Source: Candidatus Nomurabacteria bacterium RIFCSPHIGHO2_01_FULL_39_9 (GTDB lineage: Bacteria > Patescibacteriota > Minisyncoccia > Phycocordibacterales > DATEUR01). From it: a stretch of DNA of 8,283 nt. The DNA is taken from the NCBI GenBank assembly GCA_001786825.1, contig MFTL01000001.1, positions 24,000 through 32,282 of the forward strand. Reading direction: 5' to 3'. The notes below the pieces were generated by a model. It saw only the letters and a program-made list of their open reading frames with translations. It ran no database searches and was not told the DNA's origin. This document shows positions 367 through 1,771 of this stretch, in pieces. The position numbers were made by a program, and so were the translations under genes. Each line of letters opens with the position of its first letter. Position 1 is the first letter of the stretch.

Positions 367-1254
367 GTGAAAAAGAACGTATCAAAGGAAGAGCTTACTG
401 CCATTATTATGGAAGATTTTCCTGATCTAATTATTAAAAAAGTAGATAATATCGAAACAGGAACAGAAAATATTGTTCTTAGTGTGAATGATGAATTTAT
501 TTTTCGTTTTTCGATTGACATAAAAGACAACTTTATTAAAGAAGAAAAAGTCCTTAATGTTCTCAAAGGAAAACTATCATTTAAAATCCCTGAAATTATT
601 TTTGAAGGGAAAAGCCATCTTTATTTTGGATACAAGAAAATTCAAGGAAAAATACTAACTGCTGATGAGTACAGCATCTTATCAATAACAACTAAAGATT
701 ATATTGCATCACAACTATCCTCTTTTCTTATTGAGATTCATAATCAACCAGTGAGTTATTTTTCTTTTATTGATCTAGAGCCAGCCAATAAAGATTTATT
801 AATTGGTGAAATAGAGAATAAAAAGAATCAAATTCCATTCGACGACATAAGAAAACATGCTTATTTTGTATTGGATTGGTATAAAAAAATTAAAGAAGAT
901 AAGACTAACCAATCTCTTATTCACTGGGATCTTAATTTTAATAACTTTCTCGTAGATGAAAATTATAACATTACAGGTATTATTGATTTTAGTACTGTAA
1001 CAATTGGAGATCCGCACCTTGATTTTCATTCCGAATATAGGGATTCAATGGACTTGGTTATACGAGTGGTCGAACAATATAATCTTAAATCAAAAAAACA
1101 AATCAATCTTAAAAGAGTAATGCTTTACTCGTGGATTAACGAACTCTATGATTTATGTGTTAATTTAGACAACCAAGATTCTGTTAATTTTAAAAATGCC
1201 GTCCAAAGAATGAGAAGCTGGGAAAAAATTAGCTACTTAGATATTACTTCTTAA
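367..1254 (+). CDS. APH-family phosphotransferase (aminoglycoside phosphotransferase/choline kinase fold)
   Basis: This 295-residue protein has the eukaryotic-kinase-like fold of the APH superfamily and would transfer a phosphate from ATP or GTP to a small molecule in the cytoplasm. The N-lobe includes the strand FIFRFS (residues 45-50), where many members have a lysine. The catalytic Brenner-type motif HWDLNFNN supplies H186, D188 and N193. The metal-binding IDF motif has D207, followed by the family-typical GDPHLDF at 214-220. The layout resembles APH(2'') enzymes, but the substrate cannot be read from the sequence and resistance should not be assumed. The start is GTG at 367, placed to include the first helix; ATG at 409 (Met15) is the alternative. 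It is the only plus-strand gene in the window. It is A+T-rich (15 G/C in 421-480), although parts of mnmA are similar. It ends before a strong terminator and looks like a monocistronic accessory gene. Confidence 0.85.
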   Translation: MKKNVSKEELTAIIMEDFPDLIIKKVDNIETGTENIVLSVNDEFIFRFSIDIKDNFIKEEKVLNVLKGKLSFKIPEIIFEGKSHLYFGYKKIQGKILTADEYSILSITTKDYIASQLSSFLIEIHNQPVSYFSFIDLEPANKDLLIGEIENKKNQIPFDDIRKHAYFVLDWYKKIKEDKTNQSLIHWDLNFNNFLVDENYNITGIIDFSTVTIGDPHLDFHSEYRDSMDLVIRVVEQYNLKSKKQINLKRVMLYSWINELYDLCVNLDNQDSVNFKNAVQRMRSWEKISYLDITS

Positions 1255-1324: not shown

Positions 1325-1398
1325 CGCGGTCGACCGGACTTGAACCGGCAACCTCCCGCGTGACAGGCGGGTGCTCTAACCAGTTGAGCTACGACCGC
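1325..1398 (-). tRNA. tRNA-Asp (anticodon GTC)
   Basis: A complete 74-nt cloverleaf. The acceptor stem GCGGTCG/CGACCGC is perfect, the D-loop AACTGGTTA has the normal G18-G19, the anticodon arm is CCCGC-CTGTCAC-GCGGG (GTC), and the T-loop is a normal TTCAAGT. The discriminator is G, as expected for tRNA-Asp. CCA is not encoded (GCAAA follows), so it must be added after transcription. It is the last of three minus-strand tRNA genes and runs into the shared terminator. It is the canonical reference against which the two CAT tRNAs upstream look unusual. Confidence 0.95.
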
Positions 1399-1523: not shown

Positions 1524-1597
1524 TGCCGGTGACTGGAGTTGCACCAGTGACCTTCGCTTTATGAGTGCGATGCTCTAACTACCTGAGCTACACCGGC
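1524..1597 (-). tRNA. tRNA-Met, elongator type (anticodon CAT); tRNA-Ile2 not excluded
   Basis: A complete 74-nt cloverleaf with perfect acceptor stem GCCGGTG/CACCGGC, D-stem GCTC/GAGC, T-stem ACTGG/CCAGT and discriminator A. The loop CTCATAA gives anticodon CAT. The 1-72 pair is G-C, so it is not the initiator. Elongator Met is favoured by its resemblance to the usual GTAGCTCAG...GTTAGAGCA body, but an Ile2 tRNA (C34 changed to lysidine) has the same gene anticodon and cannot be excluded. Oddities are an A31-A39 mismatch closing the anticodon stem, a D-loop AGGTAGTTA with A18-G19 instead of GG, and a T-loop TGCAACT with G55 instead of U55. CCA is not encoded. A copy of its first 12 bases and leader lies at 1681-1696. 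Confidence 0.9.
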
Positions 1598-1659
1598 AAT
1601 ATTTATATACTTTATCGTACTTATAAATTATTTACAAATTTGCCACACGCCTCCGACAG

Positions 1660-1680
1660 ATCGGAAGCTTCGCTTCCGAT
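1660..1680. repeat. Perfect 9-bp hairpin between two tRNA genes, with a competing upstream arm
   Basis: ATCGGAAGC (1660-1668) and GCTTCCGAT (1672-1680) form a perfect stem with a 3-nt loop. TCCGA at 1652-1656 can also pair with TCGGA at 1661-1665, so three segments alternate as TCCGA/TCGGA/TCCGA. The hairpin ends exactly where the 16-bp tRNA-derived repeat begins at 1681. There is no T-tract on either strand, so it is not an intrinsic terminator. It is more G+C-rich than the spacer around it, which suggests inserted or recombined DNA. Confidence 0.65.
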
Positions 1681-1696
1681 AGCTACACCGGCAATA
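1681..1696 (-). repeat. Second copy of the tRNA-Met 5' end (16-bp direct repeat)
   Basis: AGCTACACCGGCAATA occurs at 1586-1601 and again at 1681-1696, identical over 16 bp and 95 bp apart. The first copy is the first 12 bases of tRNA-Met plus four bases of its leader, read on the minus strand. The second copy is a tRNA 5' fragment with no tRNA body after it. Likely origins are a partial tandem duplication or a target-site scar left by an element that used the tRNA gene. Confidence 0.75.
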
Positions 1697-1700
1697 ACTT

Positions 1701-1771
1701 TTGCGGGGCCGGGAATTGCACCCAGGTCTGAAGGTTATGAGCCTTCCGAGATACTACTTCTCTACCCCGCG
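1701..1771 (-). tRNA. Initiator tRNA-fMet (anticodon CAT)
   Basis: A 71-nt cloverleaf with the initiator hallmarks: C1 opposite A72 (CGCGGGG against CCCCGCA), A11-U24 in the D-stem GAGA/TCTC, and CTCATAA in the anticodon loop. The anticodon stem is GAAGG/CCTTC, so pairs 29-41, 30-40 and 31-39 are A-U, G-C, G-C instead of three G-C pairs. The D-loop has seven bases (AGTAGTA) with A18-G19, and the T-loop is TGCAATT with G55. The variable loop has four bases. The discriminator is A and CCA is not encoded. A promoter with near-consensus boxes precedes it, and it heads the tRNA group. Confidence 0.93.

Follow-up and report, generated by a model that had tools for sequence, protein, structure and literature searches.

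The window, as we call the whole stretch of 8,283 nucleotides analyzed here (positions 24000-32282 of contig C1 of genome G000), belongs to a 408 kb genome assembly of 28 contigs that is 62% complete. It contains three tRNA genes on the minus strand, each identified by ARAGORN and by the Rfam model RF00005: a tRNA-Asp, a tRNA with a CAT anticodon and an initiator tRNA, also with a CAT anticodon (Table 1). An open reading frame adjoining these genes (367-1254, plus strand) encodes an APH phosphotransferase domain (Pfam, E = 3.9e-13). Positions 1681-1696 are an exact 16-bp repeat of positions 1586-1601, a segment that includes the point where the second CAT tRNA gene starts, and the repeat may have been left behind when a tRNA was duplicated or inserted.

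Table 1. tRNA genes of the window and the residues at positions 18 and 55 (coordinates are those of the window).
Feature	Position	Strand	Remarks
Initiator tRNA (CAT)	1701..1771	-	RF00005 55.3 bits; A18-G19; T-loop TGCAATT
Initiator A18	1755	-	Read from sequence; G19 at 1754
Initiator G55	1719	-	Read from sequence; T54-G55-C56-A57-A58 = 1720-1716
Second CAT tRNA, most likely elongator tRNA-Met	1524..1597	-	RF00005 63.0 bits; A18-G19; T-loop TGCAACT
Second CAT tRNA A18	1580	-	Read from sequence; G19 at 1579
Second CAT tRNA G55	1542	-	Read from sequence; T54-G55-C56-A57-A58 = 1543-1539
tRNA-Asp (GTC), local control	1325..1398	-	RF00005 71.6 bits; ordinary G18-G19 and TTCAA

An earlier note on this DNA had reported that both CAT tRNAs carry A18-G19 in the D-loop and TGCAA, hence G55, in the T-loop, beside a tRNA-Asp that is normal at these positions, and rereading of the sequence, ARAGORN and the RF00005 alignments all confirm this. 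Neither CAT tRNA has the G18 and U55 of the canonical G18-Ψ55 elbow, both having A18 and G55 in their place. The RF00005 gathering threshold of 29 bits is exceeded by both genes (63.0 and 55.3 bits), and the remainder of the elbow is ordinary in each, with A14, G19, U54, C56, A58 and a T-loop of seven bases, the letters for the G19-C56 and U54-A58 pairs being kept. Both tRNAs also present a U-G-N-R-A loop (TGCAA) together with an adenosine that could insert into it (A18).

Bacterial initiator tRNAs are marked by the absence of a Watson-Crick pair between positions 1 and 72 and by an anticodon stem with three G-C pairs. In the tRNA at 1701-1771, C1 lies opposite A72 and so forms no Watson-Crick pair, and its anticodon stem (AGG/CCT) has A-U as one of the three pairs. 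The D-stem (GAGA/TCTC) provides A11-U24, in keeping with the purine 11-pyrimidine 24 rule for bacterial initiators (PMC2444032, in excerpt). Because these other two marks are present, we still read the tRNA as an initiator. AGG/CCT stands in place of GGG/CCC at positions 29-31/39-41 in most initiators of the window's order. The second CAT tRNA is most likely the elongator tRNA-Met, since none of the loci that we fetched contained a second, different non-initiator CAT tRNA and since matches to TilS were weak: none of 41 genomes had a TilS over the model cut-off (weak matches in 9 of the 41), compared with 10 of 14 controls.

Among the 24 tRNAs detected in the 62%-complete genome itself, 20 are G18/U55, two are G18/C55 (tRNA-Ala GGC and tRNA-Ala CGC) and two are A18/G55; A18 thus occurs in two tRNAs and G55 in the same two, both of them the CAT tRNAs. 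The T-loop TCCGATT, with C55 opposite G18, is found in these tRNA-Ala genes (loci L002 and L009) and also in tRNA-Thr and CAT tRNAs of relatives, the D-stem of such CAT tRNAs being mostly GTTC. Position 55 is therefore not limited to two paired states, as G18/C55 exists in Ala, Thr and some CAT tRNAs.

The earlier note had proposed that A18 and G55 form a compensated tertiary contact, a claim that predicts covariation among relatives. A sequence pattern in which position 55 was left free and position 18 was ignored, applied to 41 genomes (this genome and 40 others from the same order), returned initiators with GGTGCRA and with GGTTCRA, and in the 30 loci fetched, ARAGORN placed A18 in every initiator with G55 and G18 in every initiator with U55. 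The main pattern left both positions free, allowed two spacings and was applied to 297 genomes of the order; the matches listed comprise 183 initiators from 180 genomes, seven further matching genomes lie outside these, and about 110 genomes matched neither spacing. The 183 initiators listed divide into 93 with A18/G55, 89 with G18/U55 and one with G18/C55, and neither mixed combination (A18/U55 or G18/G55) occurs among them. For each of the 93 genomes concerned, the A18/G55 initiator is the sole one listed with either spacing. Among the matches listed, both states are found within 12 of 71 families and 5 of 115 genera, from which we conclude that positions 18 and 55 have switched jointly and repeatedly, although these counts come from related genomes without a tree and the mixed-state families and genera indicate the number of switches only roughly. 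Within genus g410, the matched stretches of genomes G650 and G574 differ only at position 18, position 55 and one further base. Also among the matches listed, A57 accompanies A18/G55 (82 of 93) far more often than G18/U55 (15 of 89); it is not required, however, as G57 is frequent in viral A18/G55 initiators. Beyond the order, a phylum-wide pattern with a single spacing fitted 11 of 379 genomes (two A18/G55, nine G18/U55), and a pattern that requires a 7-base D-loop, and is too narrow to speak for the class, matched only G660 among 96 alphaproteobacterial genomes. Position 18 was read by eye in some D-loops, namely that of L059 and those with G18-A19 and U56.

The absence of mixed states from the 183 initiators listed, and likewise from 116 viral initiators (below), upholds the proposed compensation. 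The earlier note had added that relatives with G18/U55 would point to an assembly error. About half of the relatives do have G18/U55, but each state is a matched pair, and A18/G55 is consequently no assembly error. The A18/G55 pattern is far more than chance.

The distribution of the swap among isotypes has to be read with the choice of loci in mind: most of those fetched were selected for an A18/G55 initiator, and shares for initiators are therefore taken only from the search of 297 genomes. Loci L001-L145, minus four from other phyla, contain A18/G55 in none of 143 distinct non-CAT tRNAs, while 10 of 84 non-initiator CAT tRNAs have G55, all 10 with A18. In 36 further loci of a species-wide scan (described below), A18/G55 was found in 4 of 28 non-initiator CAT tRNAs and in 2 of 34 non-CAT tRNAs, the latter both tRNA-Thr (L164, a Parcubacteria record, and L168, a Patescibacteria record). 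The totals for the patescibacterial loci fetched are thus 14 of 112 non-initiator CAT tRNAs vs. 2 of 177 non-CAT tRNAs, and the swap in Patescibacteria is concentrated in CAT tRNAs and not confined to them. The suggestion of a Met-specific constraint accordingly holds as a bias in Patescibacteria and fails as a strict rule, which is refuted by the two tRNA-Thr, by phage tRNAs and by a verrucomicrobial array. Shared ancestry of the two CAT genes, the other explanation offered in the earlier note, is contradicted by their switching separately: in locus L059 the initiator is G18/U55 and the elongator A18/G55, and among the listed loci selected by their A18/G55 initiator, the other CAT tRNA retains G18 in 52 of 59 cases (44 G18/U55, 8 G18/C55) and is A18/G55 in the remaining seven.

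An A18/G55 initiator scan of one genome per species (84,980 species) returned at least 116 stretches, and ARAGORN confirmed as tRNAs 76 of the 80 listed. Judged by record title, four of the at least 116 stretches lie outside Patescibacteria (a Prevotella MAG, Euryhalocaulis caribicus JL2009, a Nitratireductor MAG and a Verrucomicrobiaceae MAG), and the titles of all others are patescibacterial (Zambryski-, Kaiser-, Taylor-, Giovannoni-, Andersen- and Adlerbacteria, with two Saccharibacteria among further names) or say no more than "bacterium". The Euryhalocaulis and Nitratireductor genomes have additional CAT matches with U55, and the Euryhalocaulis A18/G55 copy lies about 3 kb from an open reading frame that, judged by eye, is integrase-like. 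One contig of the Verrucomicrobiaceae MAG carries 11 tRNAs in an array (L460:6752-8241), low in score and diverse in isotype, which we read partly by eye from covariance alignments. Ten of the 11 (Pro, CAT, Phe, His, two Leu and others) have A18 with G55, two of these ten also having G54 and G58 and one C54, and the eleventh has G18-A19 with U55-U56. On other contigs of the same MAG we found 27 tRNAs, all G18/U55.

Phages and viral contigs provided a second sample. A scan for A18/G55 initiators yielded at least 120 viral stretches, of which 72 of the 80 listed were tRNAs by ARAGORN. When positions 18 and 55 were both left free, at least 120 stretches were again returned (the first 80 represent 73 distinct sequences), and the 116 that we examined consist of 103 initiators with G18/U55, 12 with A18/G55 and one with G18/C55, with a mixed state in none. 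Scans of the whole viral collection for the mixed states gave eight A18/U55 stretches, two of them seen as tRNAs by ARAGORN, and a single G18/G55 stretch, which was no tRNA. Apparent exceptions to the coupling are two viral CAT tRNAs that read A18/U55 (L461 and L463), a viral tRNA-His that looks A18/U55 (L281; AGTAGAA, TTCGCGC) and a viral tRNA-Leu whose D-loop is ambiguous (L410); in further viral loci, a small number of D-loops read ambiguously. In the 80 listed viral loci, ten non-initiator tRNAs carry G55. Nine of them (Pro, Ser, His, Cys, Ile and CAT) also carry A18, and in two of the nine the T-loop is changed to AGCGTTA; in the tenth (L257), the D-loop is only 5 bases long and position 18 could not be assigned. 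Among named-phage records retrieved by BLAST, 2 of the 12 examined have A18/G55, those of Brevundimonas phages Kikimora and Gurke, in an initiator-like CAT tRNA that is unpaired at 1-72 but has C11-G24. In Caulobacter phage CcrSC, which belongs to their subfamily, the state is G18/U55.

Other viral tRNAs vary at the neighboring 19-56 pair. Six (L371, L382, L214, L249, L263 and L269) have G18-A19 with the T-loop TTTGA and thus an apparent A19-U56, and two (L205 and L366) have the T-loop TTAGA with an apparent U19-A56, the 19-56 pair seemingly exchanged. In three viral stretches (L462, L465 and L466) the initiator match is limited to the 3′ half and the upstream sequence is unlike tRNA; such a gene might be used as a phage attachment site.

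From these observations we propose that A18 and G55 pair with each other in place of G18-Ψ55 and that the elbow between D-loop and T-loop is retained, a reading to which we give a probability of roughly 85%. The pairing is inferred from covariation and analogy, its geometry being borrowed from other RNAs. In the canonical elbow, residue 18 lies between T-loop positions 4 and 5 and touches position 2, which is position 55 (PMC4810234, in excerpt), and in other RNAs an adenosine received by the T-loop pairs in trans sugar-edge/Hoogsteen fashion with the G that occupies position 2 (PMC11363276, in excerpt). By analogy, A18 would intercalate between residues 57 and 58, as G18 does, and would form with G55 a sheared (Hoogsteen/sugar-edge) pair of the kind seen for an intercalated A and a G in known RNAs; G19-C56 and U54-A58 would be unchanged, and the D-loop and T-loop would still lock to give the tRNA elbow. 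The claim that these tRNAs cannot carry Ψ55 follows directly from the G at position 55, and with A at position 18 the CAT tRNAs are also without Gm18, even though TruB is usually still encoded.

A rule of this form has reportedly been obtained in the laboratory: Steinberg and co-workers are said to have described, around 2004, a "specific purine trap" in selected suppressor tRNAs, in which U55 went with G18 and G55 with A18. Those tRNAs reportedly came from randomized libraries, whereas the present ones are natural tRNA genes from many lineages, and 182 of the 183 initiators listed for the order obey this rule, the remaining one being G18/C55. The tRNAs described here share with the canonical G18-Ψ55/G19-C56 elbow (PMC4810234 and PMC7912444, in excerpt) the positions involved, the letters of G19-C56 and U54-A58 and, presumably, the placement of residue 18 between 57 and 58; they differ in that both 18-55 partners are exchanged and the uridine for Ψ55 is absent. 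The T-loop of the FMN riboswitch 3F2T (described in the excerpt of PMC11363276) is similar in its U-G-N-R-A sequence, which an A enters between loop positions 4 and 5, but it belongs to another RNA, and in tRNA the corresponding contact between D-loop and T-loop is only proposed. A departure from G18/G19 and TΨC is likewise a feature of tRNA-Pyl and of mitochondrial tRNAs (PMC7609411, in excerpt); those tRNAs, however, lose or rebuild the contact, whereas the A18/G55 tRNAs have a normal cloverleaf in which only 18-55 is exchanged. We found no report of a natural A18-G55 tRNA in the open-access literature. We take the A18/G55 form to be a tRNA of the ordinary kind in which a compensated alternative replaces a tertiary contact that is nearly universal.

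Why the swap occurs is a separate question. Loss of TruB could make it a by-product, if without Ψ55 the G18-U55 pair were devalued and drifted to A18-G55. The TruB_N domain (PF01509) is indeed absent from 119 of the 297 genomes of the order (it is present in 14 of 14 controls), and TruB was not found in the 62%-complete genome of the window. However, TruB is present in 64 of 93 A18/G55 genomes vs. 44 of 86 G18/U55 genomes, the opposite of what loss predicts (Fisher p = 0.02, ancestry ignored), and the remaining tRNAs in the fetched loci almost all retain U55. Strong matches (E < 1e-30) do run in the direction of loss, weakly, with 14 of 93 vs. 23 of 86 (p = 0.07). An initial test on 41 genomes had given 11 of 17 vs. 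5 of 10. The check for truB suggested in the earlier note thus ended against such a cause: TruB absence fails to explain the swap in the 297 genomes, and we regard this explanation as highly improbable. As to TruB itself, many of the genomes without TruB_N are more than 95% complete, and in the 178 of 297 genomes with the domain its scores form one strong and one weaker group, perhaps two kinds of TruB. An elbow free of modification could instead be selected for in its own right, with phages and host-dependent bacteria gaining tRNAs whose folding and function need neither Ψ55 nor Gm18. This is possible, if still on the unlikely side: the same swap recurs in phage initiators, in the initiator-like tRNAs of the two Brevundimonas phages and in the verrucomicrobial array, but 103 of the 116 viral initiators examined keep G18/U55 and TruB is not rarer in A18/G55 genomes.

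The concentration of the swap in the CAT tRNAs of patescibacterial loci would be expected if a reader of the Met-tRNA elbow had changed, for example a C-terminal or Trbp111-like OB-fold domain of MetRS, leaving the CAT tRNAs to drift. Among the genomes matched with the first of the two spacings, matches to TIGR00399 (E <= 0.001) are somewhat less frequent in A18/G55 genomes (59 of 72) than in G18/U55 genomes (70 of 75; p = 0.045, ancestry ignored). The association is weak, though: the cut-off set for the model is reached in no more than 62 of 297 genomes, the domain is still matched in most of those with A18/G55 and the swap in phages also affects other isotypes, making a change of the MetRS domain a distinctly unlikely cause. 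Replacement of the host gene by a phage-borne initiator gene, as opposed to change in place, agrees with the occurrence of A18/G55 initiators in phages and with the Euryhalocaulis copy near its integrase-like open reading frame, in a genome that has another CAT match with U55. It is countered by the close pair G650 and G574, in which the rest of the matched stretch is the same but for one base, which argues for change in place, and we think replacement unlikely. That the swap reflects assembly error, a pseudogene or chance might be suspected from a fragmented and only 62%-complete assembly, but with a matched A18/G55 in 93 of the 183 initiators listed for the order and in 12 of 116 viral initiators, and no mixed initiator in either sample, its likelihood is negligible.

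By its title, a 2006 paper cited in PMC4810234 ties the 18-55 pair of the P-site tRNA to translocation, and the swap may therefore matter at the first elongation step. Against the proposed pairing stands a related case of compensation, G18U-U55G, which failed to bring back methylation by TrmK (PMC9801127, in excerpt). As to why CAT tRNAs switch most often in Patescibacteria, our guess is that the initiator tolerates the swap best because it enters the P site directly, and a further guess is that a change of both bases together is close to neutral.

More broadly, and with somewhat less than even confidence, we suggest that A18-G55 may be a second, modification-free elbow code, between which and the canonical one Patescibacteria and phages flip their initiators by paired changes, which the verrucomicrobial array would use nearly throughout, and with which a tRNA would fold and translate without TruB or TrmH. 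That both partners of the 18-55 contact are swapped at once, and differ even within a genus, would make the elbow look like a module that can be replaced. For Patescibacteria and phages, a survey that takes U55 for granted gives a misleading picture. The A18/G55 tRNAs are a natural test of the roles of Ψ55 and of the 18-55 contact in initiation, and the Brevundimonas phages Kikimora and Gurke would open the swap to bench tests.
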